DNA from: Candidatus Omnitrophota bacterium
GTDB lineage: Bacteria; Omnitrophota; Omnitrophia; Omnitrophales; JACROU01
Assembly: GCA_029261035.1 (NCBI GenBank)
Contig: JAJDCD010000017.1
Location: 1 to 8,337, forward strand
Length of the DNA stretch: 8,337 bases
Direction of reading: 5' to 3'
Position 1 is the first letter of the stretch, and each line of letters starts with the position of its first letter. This document shows positions 1 to 8,337 of this stretch, in pieces. A model generated the notes under the pieces. It had not been told where the DNA came from. It did not search any database and saw nothing but the letters and a program-made list of their open reading frames with translations. Position numbers and translations under genes: made by a program.

Positions 1-21
1 AGAGGAGGACAAGAGAGGAGA
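1..21. repeat. Terminal direct repeat, left copy (21 bp)
   Basis: These 21 purine-rich bases are identical to the last 21 bases of the window. The distance between copies is 8316 bases, a multiple of three, so both copies are read in the same frame (RGGQERR). Such an overlap is what a circular contig, or a loop in an assembly graph, leaves at its ends. The next bases repeat the AGGACA element, so the junction itself is low in complexity. Confidence 0.9.
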
Positions 22-3000
22 GGACAGTATTCTCAGTCTGCTTTTCGAGCCTTGAGAGAGGGGCTAGTTGTCGGAGTGAGAGAGGGAAAGATAGACGAGA
101 AGTTATTAGAAATAGAATTTTTGACAGAAATCGCAAAAGCGGGTGGATGGAATGTGAAGACTGCCTTTTTTGCCTTGAGAAAGTTAGGAAGGAATGTGAA
201 AGAGGGAAGGATAGACGAGAAGTTGTTAGAAATAGAATTTTTGACAGGAATCGCAAAAATGAGTGGAAGGAATGCAGGGCCTGCCTTTTATGCCTTGGGA
301 GAGTTAGGAAGGAATGTGAAAGAGGGAAAGATAGACGAGAAGTTGTTAGAAATAGAATTTTTGACAGAAATCGCAAAAGCGAGCAGAGGGAATGTACAGT
401 CTGCCTTTGATGCTTTGAGAGAGTTAGGATACGAAGTGAGAGTAGGAAATGCATGGTCTTCCTTTAATGCTTTGACAGAGTTAGGAGAGATCGATGAAAG
501 GGTGTTAGAAGCAGAATTTTTGACAAGACTCGCAAAAACGAGCGGGAATGTAGGGTTTACCTTTAATGCTTTGAGAGAGTTAGGATACGAAGTGAGAGGA
601 GGAAATCTAGAAGAGAGCGTGTTAGAAGCAGAATTTTTGACAAGACTCGCAAAAGCGAGCAGAGGGAATGTGCGGTCTGCCTTTGATGCTTTGTTAGAGC
701 TAGTAGTCGGAGTGAGAGCTGGAAAGATAAAAGAGAAGGTGTTAGAAGTAGAATTTTTGATAGAGGTAACAGAAAGAATGGGAGAAAAAACAGCAGAAGC
801 TTTTGCAAGATTAAAAGGATTAGGATCAGTAGTTTTTGAAGGAGGATTTAGAAGTGATGAGATTTTAGATGTGGTGAGGAAGGTAGATGCTGTAGAAACG
901 GAGAAAGTTTTAGAACAATTAGATCAGTTAAAGCAGGAATGGGAAAGAGCATCAAAAGGAGGAGGATCCCCAGCAGAAGAGGATGAAAAGGAATGGCTAC
1001 GAGCAGAAGCACAATCGCTTGGAGTAGAAGAACAGTATGAAGATTCTGAATTACCAGGGAAGTTTAATATGAGTTGGGAAGAGTTGGAAGGAAGTTATCC
1101 GAAGTTAGTTGAAATATTAGAGATTAAAAAAAATGCAATAGCAGCATTTATAGCGTATGCAAGCAATGTAAAGGACAAAGCCCGAATAAGAGAAGTTGAG
1201 GCGATGTTTGAAAGGATCGCAAAAGCGAGCGGACAGAATGCCGGGTCTGCCTTTGGAGCCTTGAGAGAGTTAGGAGTCGGAGTGAGAGCTGGAAAGATAG
1301 ACGAGAAGGTGTTAGAAGCAGAATTTTTGATAGAGATAGCAGAAAGAATGGGAGAAAAAACAGCCGAAGCTTTTGCAAGATTAAAAGGATTAGGATCAGT
1401 AGTTTTAGAAGGAGGATTTAGAAGTGATGAGATTTTAGAGATAGTGAGGAAGGTAGAGGTTATAGGAAGCGAGAAAGTTTTAGAACAATTAGATCAGTTA
1501 AAACAGGAATGGGAAAGAGAATCTAAAGAAGGTGGAGTGGAAGAAGGATGGCTTGATAGGGAGGGCGTTGTAGCTCAGTTTCTAGGAAGAGGATTACCAG
1601 AGAAATTAGGTTTGAATTGGGAAGGTTTTATTGATAGACATCCAAAATTATCTGAATTTATTTTGAATAAAGAAGACGCTTTAGATGCTTTAGTTCTTAT
1701 GATTCAAATAAATGGCCCAGAAAGAATTAACGATATAGAGGAAATTTTCAAAAAAATCGTTGATGATGACCCAGATATAGATCAGGTATATCCATATCGT
1801 TTTTCTGTTATTAAGGATATGGCGCGCAAAGGAAGTGTGGGGAGTGATCTTTTGGATGTGGATTTCATTCAAAGAATATTGGAATTAAGTGGAGGGAATT
1901 CTGAAAGAACTTTAGATTATTTGTTTAGATTAATGCGAGCATTTGTGCATAAAAATAAAAATAACAAATTAACTTCCAGATCTAAGACATTCCGGTCATT
2001 AGGGTTTATTAATCATACTATTCACCCCAAAGCAATGGATAGAGATCTCTTATTGGAGATTGCTGAAGTGGCGCGTGAGAAAACAGCGAACATTTATAAC
2101 CATTTGCTGGAGCTTGGGATTATTGCCGAAGGAGGGGGGTTTAATACAGAAGAAATCCTTGAGGTTTTAAGAAAAAAAGAAGCCATAGGTTTTGAAGGTA
2201 TCGAGAAGCAATTAAATTTATTAGAAAGTGCGTGGGAAAGAGAAGTTCGGGGAAGAGCAATTGAAGAGGAGGGTAACGAAGAGGAGTGGATTGATAGAGA
2301 GAGTGTTGTAGCGCAATCTCTTGGAGCTAAAGAAATGTATGATGGTTATCAAACTCGTCAGATTATGGGTTTTATCCCAAGTTGGGAAGGGTTGGAAAGA
2401 GAGCATTCGAAGTTAGTCGAGATATTTAATGAATATGAACATTCGGTAGAAGTGTTTGTGATGTCTGCTACGTATTTAAAAGATAGATTTAACGTAAGAG
2501 AAACCAAAGTGTTATTTGAAACCATTTCTGAAAGTGTGGGGGATAAACCCTTTGTTTTTGGATTGTTGCGAGACATATTAAACGAGCCAAAAGAAAGTTT
2601 TTTAGCCGTGTTGTTTGATGAGGAGTTTATGAGAATTCTAGTGGAAGAAAGCAGAGAAAAAATAGCAGATGTTTTATATGAGCTTGATGAAGCTATGCTT
2701 GTCTTGGAAGTAACAAATGGAAATCAAGAAGTGTTTCATGTAGATATTTTAAAAGAAATGGTTAAGCAATTTGGAATTCAATTTAGAGAAATTATGAACA
2801 AGTTAACCTCTTTAGGAAATTCTAGATTGAAAGAGGTTTTTAAAAAAGATGAAGTTCTCTCCATTATTAGAAAAGTAGATCATGGGGTAAGTAAAGAAGA
2901 AGTGTTAAAGCAGTTGGGTCAATTGAAAGAAGAGTGGCTTCGTCAAGAAGCTCAAGGTGATTCTCAGCAAATTCAGGAAGAAGAATGGTTAGAGCAAGTG

Positions 3001-6000
3001 ACGGTTGAAGCTCAATCGCTTGGAGCCCGTGAACAGTATGAGGATTCTGAATTACCAGCGAAGTTTAATATGAGTTGGGAAGAGTTAGAAGTAAGTTATC
3101 CGAAGTTAGTTGAAATATTAGAGACTAAAGAAAATGCAATAGCAGCATTTATAGCATATGCAAGCAATGTAAAGGACAAAGCCCGAATAAAAGAAGTTGA
3201 GGTGATGTTTGAAATGATCGCAAAAGCGATGGGGGAAAATGTAAGGTATGCCTTTAATGTCTTGAGAAAGTTAGGAGTCGGAGTGAGAGAGGGGAAGATA
3301 GACGAGAAGGTTTTGGAAGTAGGATTTTTGATAGAAATCGTAAAAGCGAGCGGAGAGTATTCTTCGGATGCCTTTGACGCTTTGAAATTGATGGGATACC
3401 AAGTGAGAGAGGGCAAGGTAGAAGAGAAGTTGTTGGAAATAGAATTTTTGACAGGGATCGTAAAAGCGAGCGGAAGTTATGCAGACTTAGCCTTGGACGC
3501 TTTGAGCGAGTTAGGAGGCGGAGTGAGAGAGGGAAATATAGAAGAGAGTGTGTTAGAAATAGAATTTTTGATAGAGATAGCAGAAAGAATGGGAGGAAAA
3601 ACAAATGAAGCTTTTGAAAGATTGGAAGGGTTAGGGTTAGTAGTTTTAGAAGGAGGATTTAGAAGTGATGAGATTTTAGAGATAGTGAGGAAGGTAGAGG
3701 TTATAGGAAGGAAGAAAGTTTTAGAACAATTAGATCAGTTAAAACAGGAATGGGAAAGAGAATCTAAAGAAGGTGGAGTGGAAGAAGGATGGTTAAGAGT
3801 GGGTGTGGAAGCTCAATCCCTTGGGTATCAATTTCAGTACGAAGGTTCAGGATTAGCCGAACAATGGAATGTGGATTGGGACGATTTATCGAGTAATTAC
3901 CCAGAATTAACAACGGTTTTGACGGCTCAATATAGGGGTGCTATGGAAGCTTTTATAAATTATGCTTCGAATTTCAACAATCCAAGTCAACTGAAAAAAG
4001 TTGAAACTTTATTTAAGAAAATAGCTGAAATTAAGAAACCAGCACATATGGCGCCATTTGGTTCTCTATCATTGCTTGGTGTAGCAATTAAAAATGGAGA
4101 AGTAAGCAAGCTTCTGTTGGATGTGGATTTGCTGATAAGAATTGTTGAAAGTAGTAAAGAACATGCGGCCGAGGCTTTTGCAATTATAAAAGCATTAGGA
4201 AAAAAAGTGAAAGAGGGAAAACTGAAAGAATCTGTTCTGGAATCAGAGCTATTTGAAAGAATCGACTTGGCTAGTGGGGGAGGAGATGCTGCTTGGGATG
4301 CTTTTTATGGTCTTGGTGAAATAGTAAATGTTGAAAACATAACCCTGCTTGAGATGGTGTGGGACATTGAGTTGTTTGAAGCTTTGGGTGAAATCCAAAG
4401 AGATGACAGCTGGAATATCTTTGTACAGCTTTACTCTATTATAGAGCATGTGGATGATGGAATTTTAAGTTTAGTGGCATTAGACAGAGATTTGTTGATT
4501 GAAGTAGTTCGACAAATGGATGGAGAAACATGGGCAGCTTTTCAGAAAATAATAGAATTAGGAACTCCAGTCTTGTCAAAAGAACTTCAAAAGCAGCAGC
4601 TCTTAGAAATTTTCAGAAAAATAGAGTATGGAGTTAGAAGGGAAGATGTTTTGAAACAACTGGATCTACTAAAAGAGGTTTGGGAGAGAGAAGCTGTAGA
4701 TGCAGAACCTTCAACAGAAGGAGTAGATGATGTTGAATGGCTTGATAGAGAGAGTTTTGTTGCGCAGTCGTTGGGGAGAGGAGAACATTTAGTAACTGCT
4801 TTAAAGAATGTCGATTTTTACCCTGGTGATAATGAAGCTCATATTCAAGTTATTATTGCTGCAAATCGTATTGGCTATGATTTGGAAGGAGCGACGGGTG
4901 AAGTAACACAAAAAATTTTAGTGAGTTTTGAACGTTTAAAATTAAATCCAGAGTTAAGAGGAAAAAATGCTGATATGGAATCTCAGTTTGAGGTGTTGGC
5001 AAAGAACTTGAATGTTTCAGAGTTATTTTTCAAAGATGTTTTATCCCAAGTAAATTTAGATCGAGAATATGCTGATGAAAATGAACAAGCAGAAAGCTTG
5101 AAAGTGCTCCTTCAAAAAATAAAAGAGTATCTCTTTCTTGTGCCGTACCTTTCAGATGAAGAGTTAAGTATTGTATTTGGAGCAATCTATTTAATAGAAG
5201 ATCGATATGGACACGATGAAGAGATTCAAGAATATTCTGAGACGATTGAGCAGTTGATTCAGATTTTAGCTCAACATAGGATTCTTCATACACGTTCTAT
5301 TGCATCTACGGACCGTTTATTTCAAGAGATGCTGAAGTCTGAAGGGCGTATTTTTCAAATGGATAGACATAAGAAAATTGTTTTCAGTGAGGTCCGGTTG
5401 ATTTATAGTCCGGAAGATGTCTTCTCTGGTCGTGATGGATTAATTTCTGTTGGTCAGAATTATCCTGGAGAGTATGAGGATGATTACACTGTTTTTAATC
5501 TTCCTCAAGAAGGTCGGTATCAAATCATAATTCATGATACGGAATATGATGGTACGAGCTTATATATAAGTAAAGAGCTTCAGAATGTTGAATTGAAAAA
5601 ATTTTATTCTATAGCTGAATTAATTGAAGAAGTGGCTCAAAATCCTCGTTCTATTCAATCAAAACAAGAGGCAGTTTTTCTTTTGATGGGAGCGTATGAT
5701 ATTTCTTATGAGGATGCTGTAAGCTTATTGAGTTCTGAATACATTCAAAAATATACCAATGAAGAAATGAGAATTTCAGAACATAGTTATCCTGACGCTC
5801 GTTTGTCGCAAGAAGACTCTTTTCGTTTATTCAATGATATTGAAGCCATAATTCAAAAAATGGAAAAAGAGGATTCTGTACACAGCGTTATTCTTAGAAC
5901 AAGTAAAGTCTTAAAAGTAATTCAGAAATTAGAAGCAGATTCCACCCAAAATATCGATGCTACAGAAATAATCAGAGGGTATTCCTTAGGCGCGAAGGCG

Positions 6001-8337
6001 CATTATGAAGCATCTGAATTGCCAAAGCAATTAAATCTAAGTTGGGAAGAGTTAGAGAGAGATTATTCAAAGTTAGTAGAAATCTTAAGAGGAAACGAAG
6101 GTGCTTTAGGAGCATTTATAGCTTATGCAGGAAATTTAAACGACAAAAATAAAATAAGAGAAATAGAAAGGCTATTTGAAAGAATTGTTGTTGTTAGTGA
6201 AGATTGGAGAAATTCATCTTTTGAGCAATTTAGGAGACTTGTAGATGGGGTTAATGGAGGAAAGGTAAGTGATAAAGTTTTGGAAATAGAATTATTAGAA
6301 AGTGTTGTTGCTACTAGTGGATTATCGACAGATGATTCTTTTCGTTATTTGCGAGATCTTGGAAGAGCATTTTATTTAGGAGAGGTGAATGAGGGGGCAA
6401 TAGAAGTAGATCTGTTGGTAGAAATAGCGAGGTTAATGGGGGCAGAAACAGGGAGTGCATTTTTGAAATTGCTAGTGTTGGCGGAAGTTACTTTCAAAGG
6501 AAATTTTAAGAAAGGGGAATTTTTATCCATCATTCGCAAAGTAGAGCAAGGAGTCAGTAGAGAAGAAGTGTTAAGGCAGTTGGATCAATTGAAAGAGGAG
6601 TGGGAGAGAGAGTTTAAAGATGAAGGAGCTCAAATAGAAGAGGGGGAAGATGCTTGGCTTGGTCGGGAACAGATAGAAGCCCAATCTCTCGGAGTACGGG
6701 AACGTTATGAGCATTTTGATTTTCCTGAACGTTTGGATATAGGTTGGAAAGAATTTGAGTCAACGTACCCTGAGTTTCTCAGCATATTAGAGGCTAGCTC
6801 GGGTGCTATAAATGCTATGTTCTTTTTTGGGGCTCGAGTACAAAGCATAAAAGAATTAGAAGAAGTTATGGAATTATTTAAAATAGTTCAACAGTCTGAC
6901 CCTAAACAAAAATGGATTTCTTTTCAATTGCTCTACAAATTATTAGATGCAATTGATAAAAAAAGAGTTGGTGAAGACTTTGCAGATATCAATTTCTTAA
7001 AGGAAGTAACTCAGCTTTTAGGTAAAAAAGCTTGGGCGGGGTTTGGTCATATTAAAGAATTAGGGGCCTTACTACCAGAAGGACGATCAGGTAAAGAGGA
7101 AATATTAGCTATTGTAAGAAAATCTGGAAGTTTGAAATCGACAGAGGTATTCAAACAACTAGAAAAATTAAAAAAAGAGTGGTCTCGTCAAGAAGCTCAG
7201 GATGGAGTGACAGAAGTAGAAGAAGTTGAGGGCTGGTGGTTAGACCTAGTGAGTATCGGAGCTCAATCTCTTGGAGCGAGGGAATCGTATGAAGCATCAG
7301 AACTACCAGAACAATTAAAGTTAAGTTGGGAAGAATTAGGACGGGAATATCCTGAGCTTATGGATATATTTAATAGACATTCAAATTCTATGAGAGCATT
7401 TTTGTTTTATGTTAGAAGTATGGGGGAAGACTATCAATTGAATGTGATTGATGATTTATTTAAACAGATAGATGAAATAAATGGAGAAGAAGCACAGGGT
7501 GCTTTTTTATGGTTCTCCTATTTAGCAGAGCGCGTGGCGCGTGGAACAGTAAGTCCGGAAGTGATGAATATAAAGCTATTAAAAACGATTGTGGAAACAG
7601 GTAGGAAATCTGCTTGGCAAATGTTTGCAATTCTTATGTCCTTAGGGTTTGAATTAAAAAAAGGGAGAATAAAATCAGACTTAATAGCCCCTAAGCTTTT
7701 CGAAAGATTTGCTGAGTTAAGTGAAGATGAAAAAGTGACGCTTTATTCAGGGTTTCAAATTTTAGAGCGTGAAACAGAGAACGATCGAGCTTCAGGAGAA
7801 CTGTTAGACCTTGAATTGTTGATTGAAGTAGTAAAACAAATAAAGAGTAGGCCGGAAGCTGCCTTTGAAGATATAAAAGATTTAGGAGCTCTTACCGCAG
7901 AGAGCGGTTTTAAAAAAGATGAAGTTGTGGAAATATTGAGAAGAACGAATGAAATTGGAGAAGAAAAGGTTTTGAATCAACTTGGTTTGTTGAAAGAAGC
8001 ATGGGGGAGAGAGTTTAAAGATAAAGATCCTCAAACAGAGACTGTTGAAGGTGAATGGTTGAGGGCGGGTGTTGAAGCTCAATCCCTTGGAGCCCGTGAA
8101 CAGTATGAAGCCTCCGAATTACCAGAACAATTAAATCTAAGTTGGGAAGAGTTGGAAGGAAGTTATCCGAAGTTAGTTGAAATATTTGAGGTTGAAATGT
8201 TTCAGCTTCCTCCTGAAAAAAATGCAATAGCAGCATTTATAGCGTATGCAAGCAATATAAAGGACAAAGCCCGAATAAAAGAAGTTGAGACGATGTTTGA
8301 AGAGATCGCAAAAGCGAGAGGAGGACAAGAGAGGAGA
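1..8337 (+). CDS. Giant modular helical-repeat protein, internal fragment open at both ends
   Basis: Frame 1 is open from the first to the last base, 2779 codons with no stop, so both termini of the protein lie outside the window or do not exist (see the terminal repeat). I do not recognise the family. The product consists of ten-plus copies of a header, arm and tail module: a header with Trp-Leu, AQSLG, SELP and SWEEL motifs, two-helix repeats of about 40 residues, then LDQLKxEWERE and an acidic linker. I infer an alpha-solenoid scaffold, probably for protein binding or adhesion, because no enzyme motif is visible. It is rich in Glu, Leu and Lys and contains no cysteine in my translation, which is common in exported bacterial proteins. 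No signal peptide, membrane helix, LPXTG motif or autotransporter domain is seen. Length differences between copies are whole codons. Coding status is very sure; function is unknown. Confidence 0.95.
130..765 (+). repeat. Tandem array of 120-bp coding repeats (five units)
   Basis: Units start at the IAK/LAK motif at residues 44, 84, 124, 177 and 216, with the next at 256; spacings are 40, 40, 53, 39 and 40 residues. Units 130-249 and 250-369 match at about 106 of 120 bases. The C-poor segment ending in GAAATAGAATTT recurs with almost no change near 61-120, 181-240 and 301-360. All length changes are whole codons, so the frame is kept. Recent in-frame tandem duplication is the likely origin. 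Confidence 0.9.
388..489 (+). repeat. Half-repeat duplication inside the third arm unit
   Basis: The second helix of the unit appears twice, 19 residues apart: GNVQSAFDALRELG (from residue 130) and GNAWSSFNALTELG (from residue 149). The second copy lacks the VREGK turn, so the unit is 53 residues long instead of 40. At DNA level the GCTTTGAGAGAGTTAGGA and GCTTTGACAGAGTTAGGA segments show the common origin. Confidence 0.8.
781..948 (+). repeat. Tail repeat copy 1 (arm end plus LDQLKQEWER)
   Basis: Matches 1351-1518 at about 156 of 168 bases without gaps and is related to the tail ending at 3792. It encodes GEKTAEAFARLKGLG, then GGFRSDEIL and LEQLDQLKQEWER, the closing helices of a module. Confidence 0.85.
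991..1545 (+). repeat. Module B: complete short module
   Basis: Residues 331-515. The header runs from EWL through AQSLG, SELP, SWEELE and YPKLVEIL to NAIAAFIAYASN. A single full arm repeat (IAKASGQNAGSAFGALRELG) follows, then the closing half-repeat with GEKTAEAF and the tail. At about 185 residues it is the shortest complete module and the best type example. Its header is about 93% identical at DNA level to that of module E, and its tail is nearly identical to that of E. Confidence 0.88.
1006..1227 (+). repeat. Header repeat, copy in module B
   Basis: This 222-base segment matches 3007-3228 at about 206 positions without gaps. It matches 8074-8316 over most of its length apart from a 21-base insertion there. 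Nine of the 13 codons that differ from the module E copy change the amino acid. Confidence 0.85.
1351..1551 (+). repeat. Tail repeat copy 2, nearly identical to the module E tail
   Basis: Bases 1399-1551 match 3640-3792 at about 151 of 153 positions. The two changes are adjacent codons, Ser to Arg and Glu to Lys. The match includes the acidic linker up to the Trp of the next header, a region with little reason to be conserved, so recent duplication or gene conversion is likely. Confidence 0.88.
1546..2283 (+). repeat. Module C: diverged module with a shortened header and a basic insert
   Basis: Residues 516-761. The header has WLDREGVVAQFLG but then drops the YExSELP segment and continues GLPEKLGLNWEGF and HPKLSEFIL. 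Arm repeats are recognisable (LLDVDFIQRILELSGG, DRDLLLEIAEVAREKT) but much diverged. A polar, basic stretch rich in Lys and Asn (residues 650-662, bases 1948-1986) is inserted between helices. The tail has GGGFNTEEILEVLRKKE and ends in SAWERE. Codon use is less purine-biased than in modules A, B and E. Confidence 0.8.
2284..2982 (+). repeat. Module D: diverged module with intact header core
   Basis: Residues 762-994. The header WIDRESVVAQSLGAKEMY keeps AQSLG, but SELP and NMSWEEL become a QTRQIMGFIPSWEGLE stretch; HSKLVEIF follows. The arm is poorly conserved and has several helices with DEEFMRILVEESREKIADVL and DILKEMVKQFG at the usual helix-one places. The tail KKDEVLSIIRKVDHG and LKQLGQLKEEW is well kept. 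The linker is Gln- and Glu-rich. Confidence 0.8.
2983..3786 (+). repeat. Module E: complete module with four regular arm repeats
   Basis: Residues 995-1262. The header is close to that of module B. The arm repeats start at residues 1073, 1113, 1153 and 1193, exactly 40 residues (120 bases) apart, with IAKAMG, IVKASG, IVKASG and IAERMG at the same place in each. The last one runs into the tail shared with modules A and B. The region around 3254-3604 also looks open on the minus strand, which is only a reflection of the repeats. Confidence 0.88.
3007..3228 (+). repeat. Header repeat, copy in module E
   Basis: Gap-free match to 1006-1227 with about 16 base differences in 222. The GGAGCCCGTGAACAGTATGA segment is shared with the module K copy but not with module B, so the three headers are mosaics of each other. 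Confidence 0.85.
3640..3792 (+). repeat. Tail repeat copy 3, in module E and crossing into module F
   Basis: Two mismatches in 153 bases against 1399-1551. The identity stops just after the Trp codon of the next header: module C continues with LDREGVVAQFLG and module F with LRVGVEAQSLG. That abrupt end marks the edge of a duplicated or converted tract. Confidence 0.85.
3787..4734 (+). repeat. Module F: long diverged module
   Basis: Residues 1263-1578. The header has WLRVGVEAQSLG, then a diverged GLAEQWNVDWDDL and NYPELTTVL, with AMEAFINYASN kept. The arm has about five helix pairs, including VKEGKLKESVLESELFERI and LDRDLLIEVVRQMDG at the expected positions. The tail is LLEIFRKIEYGVRREDVLKQ, then LDLLKEVWERE, and the linker holds Pro, Ser, Thr and acidic residues. 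The second arm repeat retains the VKEGK turn of the young modules, so ancestry is clear despite low DNA similarity. Confidence 0.8.
4735..5967 (+). repeat. Module G: header fragment interrupted by a unique domain
   Basis: Residues 1579-1989. The header starts normally (EWLDRESFVAQSLGRGE) but loses the SWEEL and YPKLVEI part within about 25 residues. About 340 non-repetitive residues follow. A weak tail-like stretch, EAIIQKMEKEDSV to LKVIQKLEAD (about residues 1948-1980), precedes the next header, without the EWERE ending. The spacing from this header to the next is about 405 residues, the largest inside the linear window. Confidence 0.7.
4810..5820 (+). other. Unique, non-repeat region within the giant protein
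   Basis: Residues about 1604-1940 show none of the header, arm or tail motifs. The first part looks helical (for example SLKVLLQKIKEYLFLV, residues 1699-1714). A segment at residues 1791-1865 (bases 5371-5595) has alternating hydrophobic and polar residues, with KKIVFSEVRLIYS, GRYQIIIHDTEYDG and TSLYISKELQNVELKKF, suggesting beta strands in an otherwise helical protein. Codon use differs: about 13 of 19 Arg codons in residues 1601-1992 are CGN, against 2 of 27 in residues 1-320. It may be an older domain or one acquired separately. I cannot assign it to a family. Confidence 0.7.
5968..6651 (+). repeat. Module H: module with a degraded header start
   Basis: Residues 1990-2217. The Trp-Leu pair and the AQ of AQSLG are lost (IIRGYSLGAKAHYEASELP), yet the rest of the header is typical: LNLSWEELE, YSKLVEIL, GAFIAYAGN. 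The arm has about three repeats (GGKVSDKVLEIELLESVVATS, NEGAIEVDLLVEIARLMG), then the tail FKKGEFLSIIRKVEQGV and LRQLDQLKEEWERE with an acidic linker. The degraded start lies exactly where the unique domain ends. Confidence 0.82.
6652..7230 (+). repeat. Module I: short diverged module
   Basis: Residues 2218-2410. The header has WLGREQIEAQSLGVRERYE; SELP is replaced by FDFPERLDIGWKEFE, and YPEFLSIL follows. The usual AFIAYASN becomes AMFFFGARV, a short hydrophobic run too short to be a membrane segment. The arm has about two repeats (DFADINFLKEVTQLLGKKAW is helix one of the last). The tail is KEEILAIVRKSGSL, then LEKLKKEW, with a linker rich in Glu and Val. Confidence 0.8.
7231..8052 (+). repeat. 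Module J: module with well-kept header and diverged arm
   Basis: Residues 2411-2684. The header is WWLDLVSIGAQSLGARESYE, SELPEQLKLSWEEL and YPELMDIF. The arm holds about four helix pairs, including VMNIKLLKTIVETGRKSAW, LKKGRIKSDLIAPKLFERF and LLDLELLIEVVKQIKS. The tail is FKKDEVVEILRRTNEIG and LNQLGLLKEAWGRE, followed by a Thr/Glu linker. Minus-strand open stretches here are not supported as genes. Confidence 0.82.
8074..8316 (+). repeat. Header repeat, copy in module K with a 21-bp in-frame insertion
   Basis: Same unit as 1006-1227 and 3007-3228, lengthened by exactly 21 bases. Its first part (SELPEQLNLSWEEL) is closer to modules H and J. Its last part (NAIAAFIAYASN to IAKA) is closer to B and E, as expected for a mosaic made by recombination between copies. 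Confidence 0.83.
8317..8337. repeat. Terminal direct repeat, right copy (21 bp)
   Basis: Exact match to positions 1-21. It follows the header of the last module directly after IAKA, where the arm should begin, and the arm does begin in the left-hand sequence. Joining the ends gives IAKA, then about six extra Arg/Gly/Gln/Glu residues, then GQYSQSAF, which matches the GEYSSDAF type of arm repeat seen near 3352-3375. Confidence 0.9.

Follow-up and report, generated by a model that had tools for sequence, protein, structure and literature searches.

The window, by which we mean the whole stretch of 8,337 nucleotides that was analysed, is the entire contig C9 of a 2.70-Mb, 26-contig Omnitrophota MAG (94.8% complete), and it is occupied from end to end by one open frame (positions 1-8337, plus strand, frame 1, 2779 codons) that forms the interior of a 6628-aa gene. 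A preliminary description, made from the letters of the window, had pointed out that the two ends share 21 identical bases and that closing the sequence upon itself gives 8337 - 21 = 8316 = 3 x 2772 bases, with a frame running round the circle without a stop. These observations are correct: the first 21 bases are the same as the last 21 (positions 8317-8337, plus strand, AGAGGAGGACAAGAGAGGAGA), and frame +1 has 0 stops, with 96-338 in each of the other five frames.

The frame is built from repeats. Their unit is a helical arm of 38-40 residues (consensus VKEGKVSEEVLDVELLERIAEASGEKTGSAFEALRELG), and the arms are arranged in modules, each composed of a header (AQSLG...LxWEELExxYPKLVEIL), arms and then a closer (DEILEIxRK...VLxQLDQLKxEWERE); the reconstructed gene described below has 48 arms, and a paralogue of 5105 aa has 54. 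All features of the window are on the plus strand. The repeat search finds an array of 40-aa helical arms with a 120-bp period at 76-825, and the motifs delimit a module with an AQSLG header, arms and closer (here DEILxIxRK...VLxQLxxLKxxW) at 1003-1545, a module with the divergent header AQFLG at 1573-2280, and further modules at 2314-2970, 3007-3786 (260 aa, the one chosen for structure prediction with AlphaFold2) and 3808-4725. Then comes a segment that starts with an AQSLG header and lies between two modules (4765-5946), in which no 40-aa arms were detected and no Pfam family was found above cut-off, followed by modules at 5947-6645, 6676-7230 and 7258-8040 and by the header of the last module (8080-8337), which is cut by the contig end and has its arms on contig C3. 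The last module is indeed truncated and the first arm headerless, as had been noticed (the last header lies at aa 2694 and the first arm of 40 aa at aa 26); the fit between header and arm at the ends of C9 is equally good for a passage from contig C16 into C9 and for one from C9 into C3.

The AlphaFold2 model of the 3007-3786 module is an all-helical row of long hairpins (mean pLDDT 91.7), and the helical modules of the window are predicted to form an alpha rod. In a fold comparison with Foldseek and VIA-align 2, this module matched only de novo designed helical repeats and TAL-effector-like solenoids. We considered these matches too weak for a family assignment (best Foldseek E 5e-3, highest Z 8.4), a Z of 8.4 being common among helical repeats, in which such matches can reflect a common arrangement. 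Pfam and NCBIfam gave no family above cut-off in the window and PHROGs gave weak matches only (E 0.003 or worse); these, as well as the sub-threshold Pfam and NCBIfam matches, were taken as chance. A protein search with the whole window across contigs of related genomes returned no match, probably because its peptides diverge too fast.

Random coincidence is excluded as the source of the match between the two ends (order-3 Markov log10 P about -10.4). A match of 21 bp is nonetheless unremarkable in C9, which is part of a repetitive gene and itself has a 120-bp period and 36 maximal exact repeats that are 21 bp or longer (up to 80 bp). The distance of 2772 codons adds nothing in favour of a circle either, since any in-frame duplication within one gene lies whole codons apart. 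The preliminary description proposed to search the same assembly for contigs sharing the end k-mers of C9, and such contigs exist: the genome contains the terminal 21-mer four times, at both ends of C9, at C16:630424-630444 and at C3:41626-41646 (minus strand), and C16 stops at 630564 and C3 at 41646, both exactly at the repeat of C9.

Behind the matching ends is a longer segment duplicated within one gene. When the route from C16 into C9 is aligned with the route from C9 into C3, the two copies, 8316 bp apart, are identical over 252 bp; around this block the identity is mostly 94-100% (~95%) across about 600 bp, and the sequences are unrelated beyond. The downstream part of copy 1 lies at 1-428 (plus strand, mostly 94-100% identical to copy 2 on C3), its upstream part being on C16, and the upstream part of copy 2 lies at 8133-8337 (plus strand; its last 150 bp match C16 at 98-100%). 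The head of C9 starts 141 bp before the end of the 252-bp block, and its tail, the last 132 bp of which are identical to C16:630313-630444, reaches 132 bp into it, so that 132 + 141 - 252 = 21 bp are left on both ends.

The length of 141 recurs in this assembly. Positions 1-141 (plus strand) of the window are an assembly branch node, being at once the last 141 bp of C16 (630424-630564) and the first 141 bp of the reverse-complemented C3, with which C9 is identical to base 141 and from which it diverges at base 142; at its other end, C9 matches the terminal 21 bp of C3. Exactly 141 terminal bases are shared also by C1/C21, C1/C20, C10/C22, C10/C20, C13/C25 and C17/C23 (this last pair at both ends), and C8 overlaps C13 and C25 by 141. 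Shared ends of this fixed length are what a de Bruijn assembly with k = 141 leaves behind. In MEGAHIT, 141 is the highest k used by default, and a contig name in a related genome begins with k141_. We counted against this account that the tail of C9 is common with C16 for 132 bp, not 141, before a mismatch. Some assemblers have 21 as their smallest k, and this k-mer size may in itself be the reason why the tail of C9 stops where it does; our conclusion is independent of this point. A second pseudo-circular contig, C1 (4099 bp), has identical ends of 55 bp, accounted for by a 227-bp repeat that it shares with C20 and C21 (141 + 141 - 227 = 55), and carries ordinary genes, including a beta-ketoacyl-synthase-like gene. 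The ends of contigs C5 and C6 read entirely as N.

A genuine circular DNA or RNA, translated endlessly without a stop, would account for the identical ends and for the endless frame. In circular contigs the repeated ends are as long as a k-mer of the assembler (PMC8116208, Extended Data Fig. 3), and the ends of a true circle in this assembly should share k = 141 bases, whereas those of C9 share 21. The ends of a circular replicon should moreover be joined only to each other, but those of C9 match the termini of C16 and C3, its start being both the end of C16 and the terminal 141 bp of C3. What it encodes is the inner part of a chromosomal gene, from a family whose members have signal peptides and stops. 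Searched with Pfam, NCBIfam and PHROGs, the window showed no replication, packaging or mobilisation gene; as regards replication genes, this agrees with the preliminary description. The search for plasmid, phage and viral-contig relatives gave no match. We therefore reject the circle, which appears to us extremely improbable, on the grounds that the overlap is not k, that the ends match other contigs and that the window is the interior of a chromosomal gene.

Read from C16 through C9 to C3, the sequence is one open frame of 6628 aa (19.9 kb, C9 counted once), with both junctions in frame. The gene starts at an ATG at C16:627061, with GAGGGG (ribosome site) upstream, and opens with a predicted hydrophobic signal peptide (MLGRTGKKITAYLIVCVFFLSHFYSPSLSYAQ, judged by eye); counted from the preceding stop, 1138 codons come before C9, 2779 are in C9 and 2728 in C3, and the stop lies just below C3:33442 on the minus strand. 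The predicted product has a mass of 753 kDa and a pI of 4.9, and transmembrane helices were looked for in it by a simple hydropathy scan; its only cysteine is located in the signal peptide. Open frames built of these modules also run without a break within one contig: a 5105-aa frame on C16 (at about 138-154 kb) and a 5950-aa frame in G001 (Candidatus Omnitrophota bacterium NC_groundwater_1969_Pr3_S-0.2um_47_3, which shares its family with the window's genome). Such single-contig relatives show that long linear genes of this kind do exist, and nothing exotic is needed to explain the window.

We thus think that C9 holds the middle third of a single linear gene of the chromosome and became a contig of its own owing to a 252-bp block present twice, 8316 bp apart (probability about 0.93). 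A de Bruijn assembly with k = 141 would be unable to cross an identical block of 252 bp. We take as established the contig adjacency, the k = 141 signature, the 6628-aa frame, the repeat anatomy and the homologous giant genes on single contigs. The suggestion of the preliminary description that the window is a fragment of a giant tandem-repeat gene, with more of the gene beyond the loop, is therefore well founded, further sequence existing on C16, which carries the start, and on C3, which carries the end. It was right, too, in suspecting an assembly artefact at a short repeat, but the assembler did not close a loop; the contig was broken between two identical 252-bp copies. Its warning that to count C9 among plasmids or viruses would give a false positive also holds, the ends of the contig continuing into two chromosomal contigs.

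The end of C16 is a fork into both C9 and C3, because its last 141 bp are common to both, and C9 followed by C9 is indistinguishable by sequence from C9 followed by C3, because both heads are identical for 141 bp. The 8316-bp unit might be a tandem array in the gene (C16, then C9 n times with n > 1, then C3), the protein being then longer than 6628 aa and varying by units of 2772 codons via recombination. None of the joins C16-C9, C9-C9, C9-C3 and C16-C3 breaks the frame, and the two repeats agree throughout 252 bp, so that slippage or recombination would preserve it; nevertheless, a single version of the unit is seen, copies 1 and 2 differ outside the 252 bp, and a single passage through C9 already accounts for each contig end once, and we consider such an array unlikely. 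One could also imagine a population mixture of the long gene (C16-C9-C3) with a short allele of about 3857 aa (C16-C3, without the 8316-bp unit), in line with the continuation of the last 141-mer of C16 into both C9 and C3, as a deletion allele would give; but a single genome carrying the repeat twice would by itself be expected to produce this fork, which makes a second allele unneeded, and we regard this mixture as quite improbable.

Returning to the single linear gene, its neighbourhood on C3 (17432-41646, minus strand) is a tandem cluster of giant paralogues, made up of the end of the window's gene and of frames of 2172 aa and 2777 aa. In another giant paralogue (L088, C16:528730-541443), a single in-frame stop splits the frame into 1987 + 2250 aa; this stop may be a genuine nonsense mutation or may stem from an error in sequencing or from variation among strains.

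The N-terminal 450 residues of the product, encoded on C16 and thus outside the window, fall into a family in which the motifs AH, EG and GGFH are invariant. The model of one homologue of this head (L093, pLDDT 79) has a parallel beta-sheet core with flanking helices, matching solved superfamily members: in the structural comparison only seven chains reached Z 8.1-10.1, and they are HopBA1, ChaN, EreC and EreA-like proteins, which have the TIKI fold in common (PMC6254334). With the same model, the top two Foldseek matches were EreC (E 0.04-0.05), and Pfam ChaN (PF04187) matched weakly in 4 of 13 head homologues. By its modelled fold, the head would belong to the TIKI/EreA/ChaN superfamily and be a domain of hydrolase-like fold. 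At the 2His/2Glu site, the His, the Glu and the second His are kept in all 20 heads compared, and the position of the first acidic residue holds Asp in 19 of them and Gly in one, not Glu. The head profile finds about 45 ORFs of 0.5-16.2 kaa (up to 16,199 aa) in the window's genome, for example at C26:65922-67283, C18:308467-309858 and C24:80488-81792 (all on the minus strand); together the head-bearing ORFs amount to about 147,640 aa, that is about 443 kb or ~16% of the genome. The profile is present in 38 of 38 related genomes of the order, with 1-44 matches each. Long ORFs of Elusimicrobia (up to 3871 aa; L096-L110) also start with the head, and several of them end in INA or IQA. In a literature search covering sources other than subscription papers and bioRxiv, we recognised no report linking Omnitrophota giants to TIKI/ChaN.

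The other end of the product is also characteristic of the family. The window's gene product ends in ...AQRLVAKAA, and among 20 other head-bearing ORFs of the same genome (L128-L147) the terminal residue is Ala in 20 and the last two are Ala-Ala in 16, against 8 and 2, respectively, of 92 ordinary ORFs of this genome (Fisher P 5e-16 for Ala and 7e-14 for Ala-Ala). Head-bearing ORFs in other genomes of the order (among L148-L167) end in Ala in 16/18 cases and in Ala-Ala in 11/18, and paralogues without visible head motif have the same Ala-type ending. From this distribution we infer that the Ala-Ala ending is a candidate for an uncharacterised C-terminal sorting or processing tag; the main alternative is that it may be a degradation tag.

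Giant ORFs of Omnitrophota are very long, with few annotated domains, and a cell-surface, adhesion or predation role has been proposed for them (Seymour et al. 2023, PMC10066038); the link to adhesion or predation has been made in this phylum (PMC10066038; PMC12057145; PMC11573180). The gene studied here, with a host in Omnitrophota and an open frame of about 20 kb, is of this kind, and it may be made as one protein with a surface location. The product would be exported via its N-terminal signal peptide and would consist of a TIKI/EreA-like hydrolase-fold head, a long rod of helical modules, which the window encodes, and the Ala-Ala tag, acting at the cell surface or further out, as has been suggested for other giants of the phylum; a surface or extracellular role seems to us rather probable. 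More tentatively, and at somewhat less than even odds, the window could belong to a dedicated and uncharacterised export/surface system with up to dozens of paralogous giants per genome in this order of Omnitrophota, each with a signal peptide, often a TIKI/EreA-like head, a lineage-specific repeat rod and an Ala-Ala tag read by an unknown machinery, some of the rods growing by in-frame duplication. The window recovers its identity as part of a predicted exported protein of 6628 aa, in a family whose head-bearing ORFs take up a sixth or so of the genome, and the common head and Ala-Ala terminus offer a concrete handle on the giant proteins of Omnitrophota.

These results can be compared with several known systems. 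With the direct-terminal-repeat (DTR) contigs of CheckV (PMC8116208), C9 has in common an end repeat which, at 21 bp, passes the 20-bp threshold; unlike them, its repeat does not have the k-mer length and its ends run into chromosomal contigs, which makes it a false positive. Intragenic duplications in giant repeat genes can thus yield circular-looking, stop-free contigs that pass a 20-bp terminal-repeat test, and such false circles can be recognised by an end overlap that is not k, by ends matching other contig ends and by forks at exactly k. Alpha-solenoids and designed helical repeat proteins resemble the predicted module in its row of long helical hairpins, but no natural protein convincingly matches it and no Pfam repeat family is above cut-off. 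The heads resemble RRSP (PMC6254334) in having 28 residues between the first His and the Glu, and differ from the TIKI/ChaN/erythromycin-esterase superfamily in the replacement of the first Glu (by Asp or Gly), in a large helical insertion between the motifs and in their fusion to giant tails. Finally, the window's gene is close to the giants of Seymour et al. 2023 (PMC10066038) in being a single open frame of about 20 kb in the same phylum, although at 19.9 kb it is just below their cut-off (>20 kb); the present description adds the TIKI-like head, the ending in Ala-Ala and the organisation into modules (40-aa arms, AQSLG header and closer).
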